Part shown: one piece after another, positions 8,001 to 56,606 of the stretch
Layout of the letters: each line of letters opens with the position of its first letter
How positions within the stretch are numbered: position 1 is the first letter of the stretch
Assembly: GCF_037975245.1 (NCBI RefSeq)
Contig: NC_092568.1
Location: 34,504,501-34,568,500, forward strand
Direction of reading: 5' to 3'
Length of the DNA: 64,000 nt
Origin: Apostichopus japonicus
Lineage: Eukaryota > Echinodermata > Holothuroidea > Aspidochirotida > Stichopodidae
The notes under the pieces: generated by a model
Seen by the model: only the letters and a program-made list of their open reading frames with translations
Database searches by the model: none
Told to the model about the DNA's origin: nothing
Program-made: the position numbers and the translations under genes

Positions 8001-11000
8001 TCATGTGTCATAATCTTCATCATCTTCCAGTGTTTGTTCTGTAGATACTTTTCTCGGTGTGTACTGGCCCATTGGTACGGGGCAGCTGAAATTCATATGT
8101 GCACTTTTTGAGGGATTCATTGTCTTGAGGTCAACATATGAGGGTCCTGGTTGGTCAGCTTCATGTGTCTGTTCTTCTCTTGATGAAGACCTGGTCAAGA
8201 AAGAAATAAATGAATCATAAAATCTCTTATCTTCTATAATTAACAGAGCCTTGTTAAAAAGTCTTGGAGAAAAATCCACTACTGTTTACTGGAATGTCAG
8301 CAAATTATGCAAATACTTTTGCTCTCTGGATCACCCTCAACCCATCATTAATATTCACATTAAAGGGTGTGAAGACTCTCGCAAAAAGAAACGTCTAATG
8401 CCGGTAATCTGACCTAGTTTCGAATGAGGTGTAACAGAAGTAAACACCACCATCGATCCCAGAAAATACACACACAGCTATACCGTCGGTAATAAGACAG
8501 CTTCAGCTACGGTCATTACCCACAGCACAGTACACAAACGATACAGCAATGGACATCTCAGGTCCAGCTAAAGATAACAAGGTATCACGTTTCATTACTG
8601 TCTGCATTTTGTAGCGACACGAACAAAACGTCACTTGCATGCAACAGAAAGTTAACAGTTTTCAGATGGCTGCAGGCGGTTTGGGGCGAGTCTTCAATGG
8701 CTTTAACTATATAGCCCTCAATCTTACTAGTAGTCTAGAGATATAGGTGACATTATAAGGTTTCAATTCAATTAAAGGCGATACCGTAGATTGCATGAAT
8801 TGAACCACTAATAATACAGAGTGACACAACTGTTCCCAGACTACTAAGGACTATATGCCATTACCTTTCAACACAACAAAAAAGTTCTGAAAATTTCCAG
8901 TTTCTTTGGAAATGCACGATCTCAAAAATAAGCATGATCTTTGGTTTTTTGTTATTTCCATACGAAATAATTCAACTGGAATGATCTGGATCAAACTTCC
9001 CTTGAACCTAGAAATGGTGTCATCATGATCCTATCTTGCCCCCAAAATAATTAAATCTAGCCCATTTGGGACAAACCTACCTACACCCTGTTTAATAGTC
9101 CTGTAACCTCCACAATTAGAATTCTAATCAAACATATTTTAAATACTAAAAACAAAATAAAAATACTCTAAGCCATTTCAAGGCATATTTAATCATATGT
9201 TCTACCCTGTTTTTATAATTTTTGAGGTCACAGAATGATTTGAATCAAACACCTACACAACTGGATTAAAACTCCTGCTCTATTGAATTAAAGATTTTAC
9301 ATCTTTTCGAAGGTTTATATGTAAAAACATTCTTCGCTCTGATTATGCTTTGTCTTTAGACAAATAAAATAATTGCTAATAATTCTTTTTTTCGAATACC
9401 ATTTTACATTTGGTTTTCAATTTCATATGCTCACCCTTCAGTAAAATTGCTGTTATACGACTGACTTCCAGAAGGACTGACTGTTGTGCGACTCCCTGAA
9501 CTATTTTCATCATACAAATCTTCCTCCTCCTCATCTCCATCCTCCTCATTCTCAGAAGATTCCTGAAAATACAGAGAAAAATCACTTAATATCACATATA
9601 GACAGGAATTTTTTTGTACTTTTATCACCAAATAGCAAATACCTACGGAAGACTAATGCAGCCATGGCCCAAAAAAAAAAACACAGATAAATATTGAAGG
9701 AAAAAAATGAAAACGAAAAAAAAAAATGTTAAACGAAAAAAAAAAATTTTACTACGAAAAACAACATTTTTACAACGAAAAAAAAAAAATTGTTTTTCGT
9801 TTTAAACGTTTTGTTTTTCATAGTAAAAATTTTGTTTTTCGTAGTAAAAATTTTGTTTTTCGTAGTAAAAATTTTGTTTTCATTTTAAAAATTTTGTTTT
9901 CATTTTAAAAATTTTGTTTTTCGTAGTAAAAATTTTGTTTTTCGTAGTTAAAATTTTGTCTTGTATATATATCTGTGTTTTTCGTTTTGTTTTTGTCATG
10001 GCCGCATTAGTCTTCCGTAAATACCTTCGGATGGAGTTGTAAACTTGTTTCATTGAAACTTATTGGGAAAGGATGTACTTTAGAAGGAGATATTGAGTTG
10101 GATCTGATATTTAAACAAGTGCTATTCACTACATAAATCCTTTTAAAATATAAGAAAAAGAAATTGGAATTTTTTAATTTTCCAATCTGCTTTGTATGTG
10201 TCATTAATACTGATTTAACAACTATCTGGGTGATGAAATGTTGTGACTAAAAAAAGAAAAGAATAAAAAATAATTCACTAGTTAACTTCCACTTGGTCAC
10301 AAATCTAGGACGGTGGGTTTGAGCTTGATAAATTGTCAAGTTTTAGTAAATGCTTGGTTAGGTTTGCTAAAGTTTTTTGACAAACAAATTCATTGACAAA
10401 CAAATTCAAGGAACAGTTTCAAGCTTCTTCGTATCTGTGAGTAATAAAAGAAGGCAGCCCATCTTACCTCGTCTGAAAATGAATTTGAATGCGATGCTTT
10501 CGTTTTCCTCTTCTTTCCTCTGCCTGCTCTGTGTTTGTTTGTTTGTTGACAAAAGAATATGAGACCATCATTAGTTTAAAATATGGTAGGAGATAATCAA
10601 CATTTACAAATTACAACCAACTCTCGCATCATCTGTAAATGAAATAGACTTTTTCAAAAAGACAGTTTTCCAGTCTTATGTCCCACTTCATTTTGGTGAG
10701 AAATCTCTGATGCATATATCAGACCTCCCAGCTGCTCTTCGACATAAAAAAAATCTTTTTTAGGGTTTTAAAGGTTTCCCTGTGAGGTCTGATATGTTTA
10801 TGAGAAGTTTGTTATGTAGAGATGGTAAGATGAAAACAAAAACAACCCCACAGATAATATCTTAAAGATGACAGCACTTGTTCTCTTTCCGAAATTAGAG
10901 AGATGAAATATGGGTAATTCACTAAGTACCTTATAATATATATAGGACGGAATACATTCCTTTCTGACAAATTGTAAGACAATTTTTATCTTAGAACAAA

Positions 11001-14000
11001 CATCATCATGTGACAAGAATGATTACAGTACTATTGACAAAAAATGAGCAATGAAACAATTATTGGATGGTTTCGAAACAGTTTTCTGCAGTGGTGATAT
11101 TGATGAATTCTGGAGGGTTAAAGCAACAGTCTTTGTTTTCCAATACTATTTGTTAACCTATAAACCAGTCTAGTATGGGTGCAATGCAAAATGGAGGCAA
11201 ACTTTCTAGTGGATTCGAATAGGATATAACAAAATACCAGATAAACCATACTTTTTTTGTCGTGTACTCTGTCCTGAGTTAGATGAAGTGCTGTTGTCTT
11301 TTGTATTCTGTAAGTCTGGAATATCTACAACCAGGTCTTTCAGAAAGTCAAATACTTTCTCTCTGTGAATGCATTGCTTTCTGTAGGAAAGTAAAATGAA
11401 GAAAGAATTGAAGATCAGAATTGAACGCCAGGAAACGATAAATAAAAGCAAATGAGATATTAATAACAAAAATCACTTCTTATAACGTTCTTTTAAAGGG
11501 TAAGAAGGAAAACCAGGGCAGTGCTTTGGAAAAGCCTAATTGAAAAGGAACTGTGTGACATCACCTTTATACAACTACAAAAAAAGTAGTATTGGTTAGA
11601 ACTCAAAACGATTAAAACTATGAGAAAGTTAAAAGCATAGATCAACCCTCTCAATGTAATTTCTACATTTAACCAGGACTCAGGACAAGCAGTAATGTTT
11701 ACAAGGTCTTGTTTGATTTTCAATTCTTTGCACATGGCCTCCAGTGTGATATTCATCGGTTGAATAAAATTTCAGTATCAATTGTACCTTCAAACAAAGT
11801 ACAAAAGAGGTTATCATAAAAACCAAATCCTGTCAGAATTATTTTCAATAATGCATACTAAATTTAGATGAAATTCTGATTCAAAACAACCAGTATATTC
11901 ATCAAATTTTCAGTTATACTTTGTCAACATGGGATCAAGAAAGAGGTGTTTGGTCCTGTTTGAAGCATGTGCAAATGAATAAAACAATTGAATGGAACAT
12001 AAAAGTAAAACTATTTCTATGTAAAAGTCTGGAATGATTGATGACACTGCACTCCTGTTCAGAAAGGGGGGGGGAGTTAAAGAAGAGCTTGAAATCAGTT
12101 CTAACATGTGCAATATTGTCATAAAGGGGGAGTGAAGGAAGAGCTTGAAATCAGTTCTAATGTGTGCGACATTGTCAGAAAGGGGAAGTGAAGGAAGAGC
12201 TTGAAATCAGTTCTAACATGTGCCACATTGTCAGAAAGGGGGAGTGAAGGAAGAGCTTGAAATCAGTTCTAACATGTGCCACATTGTCAGAAAGGGGAAG
12301 TGAAGGAAGAGCTTGAAATCAGTTCTAACATGTGCCACATTGTCAGAAAGGGGAAGTGAAGGAAGAGCTTGAAATCAGTTCTAACATGTGCCACATTGTC
12401 AGAAAGGGGAAGTGAAGGAAGAGCTTGAAATCAGTTCTAACATGTGCCACATTGTCAGAAAGGGGAAGTGAAGGAAGAGCTTGAAATCAGTTCTAACATG
12501 TGCCACATTGTCAGAAAGGGGGAGTGAAGGAAGAGCTTGAAATCAGTTCTTACATGTGCGACGTTGTTAGGGTCTTTGCATTCTTCTCCAAGGTCTGTCG
12601 AGAGGCTTTGACTAATAAATCCTGAATAAAGTGCTCCAGAGCTTTCGCTGTAATATAATTTAGGAAATATGTGTGATGCTGCAAATGACTTGTATTAGTA
12701 AAAGAAAGAAACGAAAGGAAAAATATACACTGTAATACCTAAGCTACAAAGCAAATGGTTTACATTTAATTCATATCATTATATCATATATTTCACTTTA
12801 GTAAATAGTACAATGCACTATGCTGTGAAGTGTGGTCACCTGACCTGAAAATAATTCAGTTTACAGCAGCTGGTTCTATAAATGGCATCACCCATCAATG
12901 ACTACATTCGCTACCCCAAATAGTACATAAAGTAGCCTGGCCATGGTAGCATCTGCTATGAGAATGTTATTGGCCTAGAGTATGCTAAGTATTAGTGGTT
13001 GTCTTGAACAGCAGAGGGATGGATACAGTATGTTGTGACACTATCTTTTACTCAAGTGCATTGGAATGCAAAGTCAGAGATGAACATTATGCTACAAACT
13101 TGAATTAATGCTGAATGGCAAATCAAACCACAGGCAACATTGGTTTCTCAGTGCCCAAAATATTTTACATTTTGAATATTGGTGTCTTTTACTTGATATT
13201 ACAATCCTATATAACAATGCAGTCAAGTAAAAAATGTTTGTTTTGACTAATAAAAGAACCATGACATAAGGTTTAGACAACAACACTTTCAACAATACAT
13301 TCATATGGATCCATAATGTACAGTAGTTGTGATAGTGTTACGTTCTTTTGGCAAACCCAGCTAATGCCACAAGGGCTGGACATCTTAAGTTGAGCAATTG
13401 CAAATTGTTTGATTTGCAACTATTACACAGATAAGGGTACATAAAAAACTGTGCATTTGCCACCGAATGCAAAACACTGAAATAAATCCATTCATTTCAT
13501 TAATGCTGCTCTTTTAAATGTGCATGTATTATGATGTTTATAATATTTTGAATCTATATGGCATCCATTCATTAGCTGTCAAGTTTATTTTGATCCTGTA
13601 TGATACATCTGAGAAAATCCTTGAGGTACAAATTTATCCTTTTTGGATACATTTGTTGATTCAAAATAGAGGATACAAATTAAAACTGGGACAGCTGCAG
13701 CAACTTTCCCAACTTCTTCATCGGTCTGCATAATCTTTTTTATACGTGCCTGTTGAGAAACAAAAGACAAGACAGCGGATGTAATGATAGCAATGGTCAA
13801 GAGACCTGTAAATTGTGAAGTCTTCTTTTAAAAATGGGTGTTCACACTGGACTGCTTCTGAAGTCATGTGGGCAGCCACTCCAGAGGTGCTGTCAAATGA
13901 ACCATGCCAAATTAGGTTTCACAATAGGCCTGTATCATGATCAAGGGTATCCATTGTTTGACAATTCAAGCATTTTCTTAGTTTTTTTCTAACATGGATA

Positions 14001-14642
14001 TGGTCTCAAATAAGCTTCTGTAAGGCTTCCTGATCCTTAGGTCTCTAAAACTAAAAACTGATGTACCGAAATGCTGTAGTATAGCATACAGTAGGAACTT
14101 CATGAAAACAGTAGCCACAACAGTAGGACTTGACGTTTTAATGGTGCCTACCTACCCTGCAGCTGGAGGGATAAGGTGGTGGGCCCACAGTATTTGCCCA
14201 GCTATGGAATTTATATAGGTGATGTGCCCTCAGCCACACGAATAAGGTACGTACGCCTAGCCTAGGCCTATTAAAATAGTAGTAAGTATTAGTAATTTGC
14301 AGTCACTGTTTCAAGGAAGCCGAACGAATAAGGCATTTTCTCTCTCTAATCGCCTGGCTACCTGATGGATGATTACGTATGTTATGCTATCCGCCTGGCA
14401 GACGATATATATCAATGGCGTTTTTTTTTAGTACACATTGTGCTAACAATAATATGAAACTTGAATCAATATAACTTTGTGAAACTAGACCACATGATGT
14501 AGGTGGCCAACCAGGAACATGAACAGTTATACGGATGGGTTTTGGAAAGTATATATGCATGTCTATTTAAAACAACGAACTGCAAGAAAATCCAACTAAC
14601 CGGAGGGAAACGAGCATTAAATTTCTTTTTCTTATTCGGCAT
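8001..14642 (-). CDS. DRAP1: DR1-associated corepressor (NC2 alpha), seven coding exons
   Basis: DRAP1 pairs with DR1 (NC2 beta) through a histone fold; the dimer binds TBP on DNA and blocks preinitiation-complex assembly. Coding exons, in transcript order: 14601-14642, 13677-13749, 12554-12647, 11252-11380, 10468-10528, 9435-9562 and 8001-8190 (TGA at 8001-8003). Phases 0,1,0,2,0,2 join exactly, giving 238 residues against about 205 in human. The N terminus MPNKKKKFNARFPP, then ARIKKIMQTDEEVGKVAAA, match the family almost letter for letter. The histone fold continues through VPVLIS/KALEHF (Ser codon split by intron 2) and LTTSHIKQCI to FDFLKDLV near residue 85. A basic linker (RGKKRKTK), an acidic stretch (NEEDGDEEEEDLYDE), a Ser/Pro-rich region and the conserved acidic terminus DDEDYDT follow. 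The first ATG is taken because it exactly gives the family N terminus. Introns 3 and 5 carry repeats described separately. Confidence 0.95.
9645..10018. mobile_element. Mini-transposon (hAT-like MITE) in DRAP1 intron 5
   Basis: The left end ACGGAAGACTAATGC... and right end ...GCATTAGTCTTCCGT are inverted repeats of about 24 bp that also include GCCATG. The element is flanked on both sides by the perfect 8-bp duplication AAATACCT (9637-9644 and 10019-10026). The 374-bp body has no coding capacity. It is built from runs such as ACGAAAAA on the left and their complement TTTTTCGT on the right, so the element can fold into a long hairpin. An 8-bp target duplication is typical of hAT-superfamily elements; assignment to that superfamily is inferred from this alone. 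Confidence 0.85.
12062..12595. repeat. 56-bp minisatellite that includes the DRAP1 exon 3 splice donor
   Basis: Nine copies start at 12091, 12147, 12203, 12259, 12315, 12371, 12427, 12483 and 12539 (positions of the shared GAAATCAGTTCT), exactly 56 bp apart. The last copy, nearest to exon 3, contains the true 3' end of exon 3 and its donor (CACAT, then GTAAGAAC on the minus strand). The other copies carry CACAT followed by GTTAGAAC, so each repeats about 17 bases of exon end plus a weakened donor. The leftmost copy is the most diverged; the middle ones are nearly identical. Confidence 0.9.
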
Positions 14643-21749: not shown

Positions 21750-22490
21750 TTCATTTCCAGAAAATTTAAAATCATTACACTCGGGACCCTGGAAGTCAAT
21801 GCAATGTTTCTGGTGGTTAAAATTTATAAAAAGAAATATAAGTAAATCAGCAAGAACTTCACATATAAAAGAATATTATAAAAATATTGTTAAGAAATGT
21901 ATAATGGTAAGAACTCCACATTTCATAATCTGAAAACATTACAGTATGGGCAGAGGAAGTCAGTGCAATGCTTCTGGTGGTTAAAATTTATAAAAATAAA
22001 TAAAAGTAAATCAGCAAGAACTTCACATATAAAAGAATATTATAAAAATATTGTTAAGAAATGTATAATGGTAAGAACTCCACATTTCATAATCTGAAAA
22101 CATTACAGTATGGGCAGAGGAAGTCAGTGCAATGCTTCTGGTGGTTAAAATTTATAAAAAGAAATAAAAGTAAATCAGCAAGAACTTCACATATAAAAGA
22201 ATATTATAAAAATATTGTTAAGAAATGTATAATGGTAAGAACTCCACATTTCATAATCTGAAAACATTACAGTATGGGCAGAGGAAGTCAGTGCAATGCT
22301 TCTGGTGGTTAAAATTTATAAAAATAAATAAAAGTAAATCAGCAAGAACTTCACATATAAAAGAATATTATAAAAATATTGTTAAGAAATGTATAATGGT
22401 AAGAACTTCACATTTCATAATCTTAAAACATTACAGTATGGGCAGAGGAAGTCAGTGCAATGCTTCTGGTGGTTAAAAATGTCATGAAAC
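21750..22490 (+). repeat. 164-bp satellite array, about 4.5 copies
   Basis: The block GGTAAGAACT(C/T)CACATTTC recurs near 21905, 22069, 22233 and 22397, and TGCAATG(C/T)TTCTGGTGG recurs at 164-bp steps, so the unit is 164 bp, close to nucleosome length. The central copies are nearly identical and the first is more diverged. Faint further similarity continues to about 22690. The repeated 66-codon open frames seen here are a by-product: 164 is not a multiple of three, so each copy is read in a different frame. Confidence 0.92.
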
Positions 22491-38000: not shown

Positions 38001-39131
38001 TCTGCTGGCCAAAAATGGATGTGACTTCTCCTACACTGCACTTTGATGACTGTGCGTCGCCTAGACGATATGAATGATGATAGATTACTTTGTAGTACTA
38101 TGGTTATCTTGCCACACGGGACTTCTATGATCACGTGACCCACGGGGATAACATTATCATTTATAGACCTAGTTCGATGCTTCCCTGCTGTTGCCTGAGG
38201 GTCACGGCGATGATAGATAAACAAAGTGAGGGACATCATCCATCATAAAGGTTCATCAAAAAATAAATTATATTATGATGAAATGCTCTAGAAGTCATGA
38301 CAATAACTAAAGATGAATCTAACATAATATTCCATAGCTTGTTTAGACATGTATGCCACAATGTTGACTATTTCTTACATGCTTTATGCATATTTCGCAC
38401 GTTCTATACATTTTTTCGTTAAAACTGAGCTATCTTCATAAGATAAGACTGGTTTTTTGTAGACTAGAATATGAATTCAGTGTCAAATGCAATAGCGATT
38501 GGCCCCTCAATCTGGATGCAGATTTGCTGAAGTGTAAAGGAAACGCCTGACTTGTCGCTGTCACAGAAATTGGAAATTACAAAGCTATATATATCTAACT
38601 AATCAGGAAAAAGAAAAGTGAATTCATATATAAAAGGCTAACTTTTTATAGACTTTATGTCTGTTGAAACTTGTTCCGATAGACAACGAATTGTTACATC
38701 AATTAACGGTTAACATGGTAATGACACATGTATATATTCTAGGTATAGGTCATTGGGCTCCTGTGACTGATGACGTAATATGTCAGAGGTCATTAATGAA
38801 AACGATCTTCTGTTACTATAATATGCACATGACAAAACATAAAATACAATAAACTAGGCCATGTGAACAATGACTTCAATGGTTATATATTATTAATTTA
38901 CCTAAAATGTCAAATGTCATTGAAGTTTAAAGTTTATAGAAGACGTTTATCCACCTATAAGCCTGTACTTCAAACTCGGTAGGTGTATAAGACAATGTGG
39001 CTACAGGTTGGTGAGATTTTTGTATGAGATCTGCAACAGCATGGATTGCCTATATCTTGCTAACATTTTTAACCACTTGTTATCGTCATTATTGTTATTA
39101 ATAATTTTCGTTTGTAAATTTTCTTTTGCAG

Positions 39132-39160
39132 CCATTTATCCAAAATATCCGGTGTTAATC
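39132..39160 (+). other. 5' untranslated leader of the arginine kinase start exon
   Basis: A strong acceptor (TTTTCTTTTGCAG, ending 39131) precedes 29 non-coding bases and then the ATG at 39161. At least one upstream non-coding exon is therefore expected; I did not identify it. Confidence 0.7.
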
Positions 39161-42100
39161 ATGGCAAACTTAAACCAGAAGAAATACCCTGCCAAGGATG
39201 ACTTTCCAAATTTTGAAGGGCATAAGAGTTTGCTCTCAAAGTACCTGACAGCAGACATGTATGCAAAGCTTCGAGATGTTGCAACCCCGAGTGGCTACAC
39301 TCTGGACAGAGCCATACAGAACGGTGTCGATAACCCCGGTACGTAACTACGTATATACAGACATTACATGATGGTTAAATTGTAAGTTCTCACACGTACA
39401 CGTGGGTTGTGTGTGACAATATCAATACTATAGATTCACGATATTGGCCACCTTGATTCATACTGTTAGACGTGAAGGTTAAGGTTAACGGAATATCTAT
39501 ACATCTCCCCTGTACTTGTCAAAGAGAAAACATCAGAAGAAAGCATGAGATGCTTCTTTCAAAAACAACATCTTCTTTGTTTTCTGTTTGTGACATGTAT
39601 TTTTGTGCTTGGAAGTCGCTATACGGGAGAACAAGAAATGTTGCAGCTGCTGGCTATTATTCCCGATAGGGCGTTCCTTGGGCGTTCCTTGCATGTAGTT
39701 ATATGAAACACAAAACGGGCAATAATCTCTTGATATAAAATAAATGTAACCTACCAATCCCTCGATCTATTAATCCTTTTAACACCCCATATATATAGGG
39801 TTGTAGCCTTGATTAAAATATGTAACTAATTCCCGTATATAACGATGTTTTACTTGCTGCACCATAAACGATAGTGTACCAGTATGTTGCGATCAAATGG
39901 GACACATGAATAAGTAGGCCTATATACATTACAGTTGTAACGATGTAAACCGATGTAATGTTACAGCCCCATAATGTATTATTGTACAGCGGAAGTTGAC
40001 AGGGCAGCCTTATTGTATACTAGACTCGTCTCGAACTGAATGACTTAAACTCCAATTCACCGTATCTTGTTACAATCTTCTTTATATACTGAAATATTTC
40101 ACTAAAGATTTCTTCAGTTCGATAGTTAACTTCAAATCTCGTGGCTAGAACGATGACGTGTGTTGACATGTCGTATGTTGTATTTTCCGGCTATGGTGAC
40201 TGACCTATACACAAAACTTGTCAGCAATAGTGGCTTAGTACAAACAGTTTGAACCACCGTGATACGTCCAGGATGGTAGAATGCAATTACATTGGGCAAT
40301 TAAGTACTCTATTAATGATGATATGATGGGTACCAGCCTGAAATTACACATGGGATGCCATGTCACAATATAATTAATTAACCCGTAGATACAAATATTT
40401 TTTGCGCTATATCTCAGCAACATTTACGTTGTTATCCAACCGGTGAAAATAATGAACGTCCCGCAACACGTCATATATTGATTGCATTAGTTGTCAGTTC
40501 TTTTCGGAATCCTTGAACGTATATTACACTCTGATGTAGCCAAAACTATAGGACTTGACTCGGACTCGCGGTGAGTGTACACTAACTATAGCTCGACTAT
40601 ATACCTCCCTGAAAATGCCATATTCAATGTAGTAAAGGTCATTGTGTTATTTGTGTATTATTTATTCCCTATTTATACGAAACATGTTATGTGTAATAAT
40701 TATGGCACAAAGATAAACTTCCATTCAACAAAGTATTTTCCATATATTGTTATAAAATAGAAGATTTTTATGAAAGGAATACCACCCCTCCCACCCTGGT
40801 GTTGTTTATTATATAGTTATAGTGTTGTTGTGTAAAGTTTTGTTCAATCTTCTCTGATCGCTGATGGAGTTGATGATATAGCGAAAGCAAACTTGGCGTA
40901 CTTTTTCTGTTTTGAATAATTCAAACATATCCTAATGTATATAGATGCAGGCTGTAAGTACATACATGCATATATGCATAAATCTGTAAACCAAAAGACT
41001 TATTAGCTGATGATATAGAGGTTTACATGGCGAATTTGAGATATCTATACTAATTTACATGACACAACGTACGTATAATCGAATGACTATTTTCAAATTT
41101 GATAGTTATTTTACCAACTTATATTTTTTCTTCTTCTAAGATTTCCATTTGGGTCTTCTTGCCGGCGATGAAGAAACTTACACTGTGTTTGCTGATCTAT
41201 TTGATCCGGTCATCGAAGAATACCATAATGGCTTCAAGAAAACAGGTATTTATTACATGTTTGGTCAGTCATTGAATATATATATAGAAAATATCAAAAA
41301 TGCGAGAAATTTAAATATAGAAATTACGACTTATGTTTATATGTTTTATAGACCTAATAAGTTTTCGTCTAAATATGATGCATCAAAATGCACCAGTTGA
41401 CGTTGTAAAATGTCTGACCACCCTATCCCATGGCCACACCCCTTGTATCTAAACTTGTTGACCCGCCCTGGACATGTGTTTTGTAGTGTTACTTTATATA
41501 CGAATTCATAATAGGCGAAAGAAACACAACTCATATACATTATCTATTTACATATTGAATGTGGTAATCATTTGACAATCTCTGAGGTGTTCAAGTGACA
41601 ACATGATCGCACGCAGACACACAGACACACGCAGAACGAGGTATAGTTGTCACATAAATCTTGTAACTTTACAACCAAGAGATCTTTGCTTTGTTTCACT
41701 ATTTAAATAATCTATAAATGACATGGCATATATTAAAGTTTCGTGATATTAAATGGGTTCGGTGTACGCGTCCATTGCTTGTTGCCTTCATTGTTGATAA
41801 CATGGATGACAACACTTTACTTGACATACACTTTTGTAAGTCCGCATTGACTCGCGGTAAACAACTGAAAGAAATGTCTTTTACAATGATAGTATTGTCT
41901 CAACAACCCCCGGTCCACAATGCCGACGGCAATATACAACCTGCATAAATATTTCGAAATCATATATGGTTAATTAGTCAGTATTGTACTGGTTCCATAC
42001 TTAAACCTCTATTAAATCAATAAGTTAATTGCATCAGCAATCAAAACACAATGAGCTCTCACGAATGCAGAATGTACATTACGAATATTAAGAATCGTAG

Positions 42101-49714: not shown

Positions 49715-50873
49715 CACTTCGCCCAACAACCATTTCGCCCAACTGCCATTTCGCCCAACCAGCCTGGTCATTTCGCCCAACCGCGTTGGTCATTTCGCCC
49801 AACCAGCATGGTCAGTTCGCCCAACCGTGTTGGTCATTTCGCCCAACCGTGTTGGTCATTTCGCCCAACCTTATTTTTACTAATATTCAGTCAGAATAAT
49901 ATTACTTTTTCTATTCCACCAGTTCAATTTGATTTATTTTGGGTAAGGTTACTTCGTAATAGGTAAATAAAGTGAGGTCCGCTCGATATCGATCGGAGTC
50001 TGAGCAGTTATTTCGGGTATAATGGGAGGATTACACTACTTTAGGCGTTTACGCATACAATGGAAGTTATATTATTATACAAAGGGGAATCGGTGTGGAA
50101 TAATATAACCGTTTCTATTTCACTAGTTCAATTTGATTTATTTTGGGTTATATTATTGGTAGTTATATTATCTAGTTTTACATAGTGTTAATCTAATGTT
50201 ATACAAACACAGGGGAATCGGTCTTCATAAAAACCTATCAAACCTAACCCCTAAAATACTGGTCCATTCTACTGACTAACAATTCCGGAACGTTAAGTGA
50301 AAAACAATATATATATATAAAACCCGTCCGTAATATTTATCAATGTAACCACATATGTAATCACATATGTAGGCCTAATCAATTTACACGACTTCAAGTT
50401 TCCTTAATACTCGGTTCGTATCCCGTAACGTTAACAATTCCCGACCGTTTACTATCAAACCTATCAAACCTAACCCCTAAAACACTGATCCATCCTCAAG
50501 ATTCCTTAATATTCGGTTCGTATTCTGTAACGTTTCCTTACTAAAGTTATACAAAGAAAAGGACTTCAAGTTTCCTTAATATTCCTTAATATTCGAACGT
50601 TTACTATCAAACCTAACCCCCAACACACTGATCGGTCCTCAAGTTTCCTTAATATTCGGTTCGTATCCTGTAACTTTAACAATTCCCGAACGTTTACTTT
50701 TCAAGTATCATATTTAATCAAGGTTGGGCGAAATGACCAGGCTGGTTGGGCGAAATGACCAGGCTGGTTGGGCGAAATGACCAGGCTGGTTGGGCGAAAT
50801 GACCAGGCTGGTTGGGCGAAATGGTAAGGTTGGGCGAAATGGCAGTTGGGCGAAATGGTTGTTGGGCGAAGTG
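49715..50873. mobile_element. Fold-back element with minisatellite arms (TTCGCCCAAC repeats)
   Basis: The left arm (49715-49871) is a series of CATTTCGCCCAACC units separated by spacers such as AGCCTGGT. The right arm (50722-50873) is the same series inverted (GGTTGGGCGAAATG). The outermost 46 bases of the two arms are exact reverse complements, including the diagnostic first unit CACTTCGCCCAAC and the two irregular spacers AACCATT and TGCCATT. The 0.85-kb interior is non-coding and contains tandem copies of a roughly 100-bp block (TTCCTTAATATTCGG, TCCTGTAACGTTAACAATTC, ATCAAACCTAACCCC) between about 50380 and 50700. No clear target duplication was seen at the ends. Confidence 0.85.
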
Positions 50874-54809: not shown

Positions 54810-55344
54810 TTAACAAAAATGAGCTAATAAGATGAGAGTAAGACACATTTGTACAGCCCAGAAGTAGGTTTTCACAAACCGATTTGAGGTTCCTGAAGAA
54901 CTTGTCTTTGCTTCTTGTGCAATTGCTGCTTGATCTACTTCTGTCTGTGAAGGCTTAATGTCATTCCCATTTTCATCATTCCAGATGCTACCGTACTTAG
55001 CTCTCATTACACCACCATTGATATTGACAATGAAACTGATATCCCCCTTTTGTTGGATATTTTGCCATATGTACCCCTGAGAGAGACACCAGATGGAGAC
55101 ATAAACATCACTGCCATCAGGGGAAATTCCAACAAAGTCCAATGGTAAGACTTTGGCAAACCCTGCTGTTATAAAGTTCCCGTACGTCGACTTAATCGTG
55201 GCACTAGCAGACACGTATCCGACCCCGACACCGATGGACATCTCCTGAGATGTTAGTTCCTTCACATCTACCTTCACGTATATGGGTTCGAAGTAACCAT
55301 TAGCCACATGAGTTGTAGAATATCCCATTGCCGATATTACGGCT
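54810..55344 (-). CDS. Unrecognised protein, single or last exon (172 codons from first ATG)
   Basis: This is the longest open frame in the window and much richer in ordinary codons than its surroundings. The exon is bounded upstream by an acceptor (ATTCTACTCAG, exon starting 55344), and the frame is open from there to the stop at 54810-54812. Either the ATG at 55326-55328 is the start after a non-coding leader exon, or the frame continues from an upstream coding exon. The sequence begins MGYSTTHVANGYFEPIYVKV and alternates short beta-strand-like segments with glycines (GVGVGYVSASATI). A YGSIWNDENGND block and an Ala/Ser-rich segment follow, and it ends in a hydrophobic stretch (VQMCLTLILLAHFC). 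That end could be a membrane anchor or, after SSSGTSN, a GPI-attachment signal. I see no signal peptide unless one is supplied upstream. I do not recognise the family and assign no function. Confidence 0.6.
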
Positions 55345-56606
55345 CTGAGTAGAATAGAAGAATTATGATATTGAAAATTAGAATATAAAGATCGTGAATA
55401 ACACTCTTTTTGACAGCTTCAGGTTACTAATGGAAGTGTTAAAGATAGAACAAGCCACTACAAAGTTCGCCTTAAACATATAGAACGATACACTTTAGAG
55501 GACTAAAGTTTCGATCCTAGCAGGATCTATACTAATAATGAAGAAACAAATTATGAGTTACGGCACAACAATTAAAGAGAAATGACCTTCTTACGGACCT
55601 TCTTCTCGGAGTGTTGCATTCGTGGAGCGTGACCTCAAAGTCTGATTACGTATTAAATTGTGATGGTTTAAACCAGGGTTTCCCTAACTTTATCCCCCAC
55701 GAACCCCCTGTGGATGTCAGAGTTTTCCAAGAACCCCCAACTTTTCGAGACACGATCTGAGTCATTATTATACTATAATACGCATAACAGTGCTTCCTAA
55801 AAGATCAAGTTCATAGTCTAATATTGTGGAGTTTGTCGATAGGTACGACTTGTGTACATTACTAAATGACATGATATATCAGATTTGAGTTCAATAAAAA
55901 GTATTCTAGTTTTGACTTTCAGAAACGTCTCACGTACCCCCTGGGATGGATTCACGCACCCCCTGGGGATTGATGCACCAGTTAGGGATCCCCTGGTTAA
56001 ACTATTGGGAGGGAGCGGGGGTTGTGTAGCACACTGGCGTGTTATAAATAGTCACGCAATAATGACGATGTACTTTTCTGTCAACATTTTGCAACAATAC
56101 GCAATGATCGAGCTAATGAAAATTCAAACAAAAATATTGCATGTCTCGTCTGTGTTTACAAAAAAAGTCAAAACTTAACCTTTTTTTCGGACGCATGCAC
56201 CGGAAGATGTATTTTTGCCAAAGCACATGCCCAAAGATTCGACATGATGCATTCTTTGCCAGTGCGACTATCACTACAATTCCCAAGTACCGATAGGACT
56301 GTGAGGTTTGGTACGGTATCGTGACGGTAAAAGACTATAACTTATGGGAAGTTCGTTACAGAGAGATAATTTGAACAATTTGAAGAATAAAAAAGTGACT
56401 AAAGTGGTCAATTTTGAAACATAGCTTTAATGCACATGGGATGATCATTAAGAGATATGGCAACTGATTTTTTGGGCTAATATACATTCACATGACGCTA
56501 AATAATCAGAAAGTTGCACCACATCAGAGGTAACTAGCAGCGTGGGTATTCATGGTGTGGTTACATGTGGTATGGTGCTAAGCCCATTATTGCCTCTTCT
56601 GGATAT
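55345..56606. other. Spacer containing one hAT-like mini-transposon
   Basis: Besides the element at 55674-55995, this region may hold the upstream exon(s) of the minus-strand gene, but I could not identify any. The rest is AT-rich. Confidence 0.4.
55674..55995. mobile_element. Mini-transposon with CAGGG...CCCTG ends (hAT-like)
   Basis: Left end CAGGGTTTCCCTAAC and right end GTTAGGGATCCCCTG are imperfect inverted repeats. The 322-bp body repeats ACCCCCTG-type blocks (CACGAACCCCCTG near the left, CGTACCCCCTGG and CGCACCCCCTGG near the right). Flanks GTTTAAAC and GTTAAACT resemble an 8-bp duplication with a one-base slip. The CAGGG(G)TTCCC-type end is common among hAT elements. Confidence 0.65.

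Follow-up and report, generated by a model that had tools for sequence, protein, structure and literature searches.

Exon 3 of a DRAP1/NC2-alpha gene on the minus strand of the window, by which we mean the whole 64-kb stretch of DNA analysed, ends inside the first unit of a 56-bp minisatellite, whose remaining units run on into intron 3 (Table 1). With a probability of about 0.75, we read this array as a passive minisatellite that was born by tandem duplication across the exon 3 border and whose copies are mostly silent relics. It is a splice-donor-spanning minisatellite of the kind already known from human IFI6 and ABCA7, and it shares their anatomy in that the genuine donor lies in the first unit. 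By itself, such an array is not surprising; it is an everyday minisatellite that happens to lie at an informative spot. It offers a clean sequence snapshot of a minisatellite arising over an exon-intron border with the coding frame intact, and since a neighboring intron is likely of the U12 type, donor competition and exon bridging might be studied here in a natural setting.

Table 1. Features of the DRAP1 gene and of the 56-bp array, in window positions; a slash marks the exon-intron border.
Feature	Position	Strand	Details
DRAP1 exon 1, coding part	14601..14642	-	MPNKKKKFNARFPP; donor CCG/GTTAGT
DRAP1 exon 2	13677..13749	-	ARIKKIMQTDEEVGKVAAAVPVLI; donor TTT/GTATCCTC
DRAP1 intron 2	12648..13676	-	probably U12-type; 5' end GTATCCTC, branch-like TTCCTAAAT
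DRAP1 exon 3	12554..12647	-	94 nt; (S)KALEHFIQDLLVKASRQTLEKNAKTLTTSH(I)
DRAP1 intron 3	11381..12553	-	1173 nt; houses the 56-bp array
DRAP1 exon 4	11252..11380	-	KQCIHREKVFDFLKDLVVDIPDLQ...; start backed by protein match, 3' end ambiguous
Probable C-terminal DRAP1 exons	near 9562-9435 and 8190-8001	-	
56-bp minisatellite	12062..12570	-	nine units; 2, 3, 4, 5 and 7 identical; 8 and 9 divergent
Exon part of the repeat unit	12554..12570	-	final 17 bases of exon 3
Genuine exon 3 donor GT	12552..12553	-	CACAT/GTAAGAAC
Unit 8, GT lost	12160..12161	-	CACAC/ATTAGAAC

The identity of the gene follows from its predicted product. When exons 1-4 were joined, the best match among solved structures was 1jfi_A (E 4.2e-33, residues 1-77), which we take to be human NC2-alpha, and the product also matches PF00808 (E 3.9e-20); judged by this likeness, the gene is DRAP1/NC2-alpha and encodes the NC2-alpha histone fold sequence. 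A protein search with DRAP1 across the 671.6-Mb genome (E<=10) gave two matches, exons 3 and 4 of this very gene, and a second copy or retrocopy was accordingly rejected at that threshold. The 3' part of the gene allows several models: when exon 4 was ended at either of two GTs or at one non-GT site and set against AGs near 9562, five open joins to exon 5 resulted, none of them preferred. The acceptor at 9562 (9435-9562, minus strand) looks good and, among the exon 4 ends tried, is in frame only with the non-GT end. There may be a small extra exon between exon 4 (11252-11380) and 9435-9562.

Upstream of exon 3, the terminal signals of intron 2 suggest that it is probably of the U12 type. Its 5' end, GTATCCTCTATT, fits the U12 word [AG]TATCCT[CT], of which the 64-kb window has 13 instances over its two strands, the one at intron 2 included. 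The branch-like TTCCTAAAT of intron 2 agrees with the U12 branch consensus TTCCTTRAY at 8 of 9 positions and lies 11 nt from the 3' end, where about 10-15 nt is expected. Introns 1 and 3 have no U12 word at their 5' ends but reach 7/9 for the branch word, at 3 and 16 nt, respectively, from their 3' ends, so that the branch word separates weakly and the assignment depends mainly on the 5' end. The signals are consistent with the choice of mouse Drap1 as a U12-intron gene (PMC3695530), a comparison made between genes and not between intron positions.

The array itself is highly regular. Tandem Repeats Finder reports a period of 56, 8.9 copies and 96% matches, and the nine units follow one another at a spacing of exactly 56 bases; a stretch at the register of a tenth unit, beyond the array, was excluded from all unit counts. 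The first unit holds the end of exon 3 and the genuine donor (CACAT/GTAAGAAC at 12553), which bears out the preliminary description of a 56-bp minisatellite with the exon end and donor in its exon-proximal unit. Compared with the five identical units, unit 6 differs by one base, unit 8 by four and unit 9 by six, and a pyrimidine-rich stretch is present in every unit. The same description had eight extra units carrying a pseudo-donor at 56-bp steps. This holds for the spacing and for seven of the eight units, which have CACAT/GTTAGAAC with AG kept at +4/+5; unit 8, reading CACACATTAGAAC at 12161, has no GT. At donor position +3, T stands in every one of the eight extra units whereas the genuine donor keeps A, so that a weakened copy seems to have been the one that was amplified, through selection or chance.

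A genome search with a two-unit query, by a method that skips common words, returned five match rows, all inside this array, and a dispersed repeat family was rejected within the reach of that search. As to the base rate, 20 samples of this chromosome, each 10 kb long, contained five arrays with a period of at least 40 and at least five copies, covering 2,763 of 200,000 bases; arrays of this kind are thus fairly common in the chromosome sample, and some are to be expected across exon borders. At the distal end of the array (12050-12085, minus strand), CCCCCCCCCTTTCTGAACAG/GAG resembles a splice acceptor, a putative site beyond which one frame stays open for some distance.

Does the repeat unit derive from the exon? 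The last 17 bases of exon 3, CTAACAACGTCGCACAT, are identical at 14 of 17 positions to the corresponding part of the common unit, CTGACAATGTGGCACAT; identity to the exon is 14/17 in each of units 2-8 and 12/17 in unit 9. The copies, which had been said to carry the same exon-end sequence, are therefore similar to it but do not repeat it letter for letter. To the left of these 17 bases, likeness to the exon falls to 3/23, which places a sharp edge inside the exon, and the distal end of the array, at TTTCTGAACA, coincides with the point at which the exon-like part begins in the other units. Unit 8 retains the exon's TCG. The TTSH codons of exon 3 are common to NC2-alpha 1jfi_A, and this conservation makes the exon the likely source of the repeat. 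It is scarcely credible that an intronic minisatellite merely adjoins the exon and resembles its end by accident: just 17 exon bases are involved, of which the common unit mismatches three and unit 9 five, yet a match of 14/17 at a fixed register has a binomial P of ~2e-6, and when the common unit's 17-mer was compared with both strands of the window, 12040-12590 left out, none of the 126,866 other 17-mers had more than 12 matches and eight had 12. Taken together, the in-register match, the sharp exon edge, the coding constraint on the exon and the matching distal edge support the earlier proposal that a segment across the exon-intron border was duplicated and then expanded.

We envisage the following course. 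A single tandem duplication, probably between two short words of similar sequence, exonic CTAACA (exon 3) and intronic CTGAACA (intron 3), would have copied the final 17 exon bases along with ~39 intron bases. The founder copy would have had, or soon gained, the T at donor +3, and slippage or unequal exchange would have spread it into the eight extra units. The genuine donor would have remained in use because selection on coding and splicing kept it intact. Any copy, if used, would yield a truncated protein of 70 aa and probably lead to mRNA decay, whichever copy it was.

This last point follows the reading frame. The bases after the end of exon 3 read ATG TAA, and use of a copy gives ...TCG CAC ATG TAA. 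We tried eight extensions, of 56 to 448 bases, and all of them stop at the same TAA after 70 residues; the 392-base extension would finish at unit 8, where the GT is lost. Since every extension meets this one TAA, no change in copy number can move the frame in steps. Of the earlier expectation that 56-base steps shift the frame and truncate the protein, the truncation stands in 8/8 extensions, whereas the stepwise frame effect is rejected in favor of an immediate stop. Messages that stop prematurely in this way are expected to decay.

How strong are the copies as donors? We scored them with a human donor table (PWM) and with predicted U1 duplex energies. The genuine donor reaches 2.68 in this human table and -4.4 kcal/mol, against -1.35 and -0.5 kcal/mol for the seven GT copies. 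By the same table, 1,294 of the 7,363 GT sites in the window score at least as high as the copies (one per 99 nt per strand), and 202 at least as high as the genuine donor. Three further GT sites of intron 3, at 11564, 11476 and 11787, score above the copies; that at 11564, with 3.04, even exceeds the genuine donor, which shows that the human table discriminates poorly here. The exon 1 donor, CCG/GTTAGT, scores 3.13 in the table and -5.4 kcal/mol; as exon 1 apparently uses a GTTAG donor, T at +3 is not disabling alone and can function where the context is more favorable. The low table score of the exon 2 donor (-7.71) is what would be expected if that donor belonged to another class. As far as a table with these limits goes, the seven GT copies are weak donors by prediction.

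Arrays at splice borders have been described before. Turri et al. reportedly found in 1995 that the minisatellite of IFI6 provides several splice donors. According to a further report on this gene (6-16, G1P3), two downstream minisatellite units are used as donors (PMC4526556); there, extra-donor use is reported, whereas the DRAP1 copies are donor-like by sequence only. The intron-18 VNTR of human ABCA7 has a 25-bp unit that starts at the exon 18 donor, and alleles range from about 12 to 427 units (PMC5954066). Like the DRAP1 array, it lies directly 3' of an exon and includes its donor, and a cryptic donor one unit downstream is used at a low level; unlike the DRAP1 unit, the ABCA7 unit is described as starting at the GT, with no mention of copied exon sequence (PMC5954066). 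The ABCA7 effects were also measured in RNA, while the DRAP1 array is known from DNA: retention of one unit is low and independent of array size, and longer VNTRs bring more skipping of exon 19 (PMC5954066). In human CBS 844ins68, 68 bp over an intron-exon junction are duplicated and the gene is still spliced; it differs from the DRAP1 array as a single extra copy at the intron 7/exon 8 border, with the distal site favored, and as a human polymorphism (PMC2630376). Next to ABCA7, IFI6 and CBS, the DRAP1 array is a further example, which differs in the 17 exon bases that it includes and in copies that are weak by prediction. In human segmental duplications, too, gene structure is altered by variable minisatellites, in some cases at an exon-intron boundary (PMC2812944); those cases are primate-specific paralogues, some with novel introns, whereas the DRAP1 search matched a single locus.

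What, then, could the row of copies do? The preliminary description saw in them competing decoy donors through whose number the amount of DRAP1 is tuned. In its favor, seven of the eight extra units retain GT and the +4/+5 AG, a GTTAG donor seems to serve exon 1, downstream units of IFI6 do act as donors (PMC4526556), and one unit of the donor-spanning ABCA7 VNTR is retained in few transcripts, apparently 2 +/- 1% (PMC5954066). However, the predicted U1 pairing of the copies is weak, one of them has no GT, three other sites in intron 3 score above them, and every extension ends in the identical truncation with no stepwise effect on the frame; in ABCA7, unit retention is unchanged by VNTR size (PMC5954066). 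We therefore do not retain the tuning proposal and consider it quite unlikely. An effect of the array on splicing through its length or pyrimidine content, with no use of decoys, strikes us as doubtful; by analogy with ABCA7, it might take the form of exon 4 skipping. The array's likeness to the VNTR that begins with the donor of ABCA7 exon 18 (PMC5954066) and the pyrimidine-rich stretch in each unit would suit such an effect, but at ~0.5 kb the array is close to the short ABCA7 alleles of 298 and 592 bp given there (PMC5954066), and the predicted fold of exon 3 with the first units is no stabler than that of shuffled sequences (z 0.04). By this last result, with 95 of 200 shuffles equally good, a folded RNA element was rejected as a candidate.

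The neighboring intron 2 invites one more thought. U1 at a downstream major donor enhances splicing of the upstream minor intron (PMC8034651), and given the U12-type ends of intron 2, the array might affect exon bridging: by adding weak U1 contacts downstream of exon 3, it would aid the splicing of intron 2 through bridging between minor and major spliceosomes. The treatment of mouse Drap1 as a U12-intron gene (PMC3695530) fits this idea, whereas the weak U1 pairing predicted for the copies speaks against it, as does a U12 assignment made from motifs; we hold it to be very improbable. A long shot of much the same order is that the row of weak donors forms a length-variable platform for U1 or for pyrimidine-tract proteins, such that array length sets exon 3 bridging and the rate of minor intron removal. 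If this were true, the length of a minisatellite would govern how fast the transcripts of a gene for a general transcription repressor lose their minor intron. A passive array with mostly silent copies is the reading that we prefer to all of these.

Elsewhere in the window, several features bear mention in their own right. A 164-bp tandem array at 21791-22478 (4.2 copies, 98% matches) looks recent. Two 22-bp arrays, at 49747-49870 and 50722-50823, one built from a TTCGCCCAACC-type unit and the other from the reverse complement of that unit, are inverted and ~0.85 kb apart; they are perhaps parts of a mobile element. A 202-aa open frame at 54813-55418 (minus strand) gave no match in a Pfam search at E<=0.01. 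On the plus strand, 38924-39343 is an exon of an ATP:guanido phosphotransferase, matching the N-terminal domain PF02807 (E 6.4e-14).
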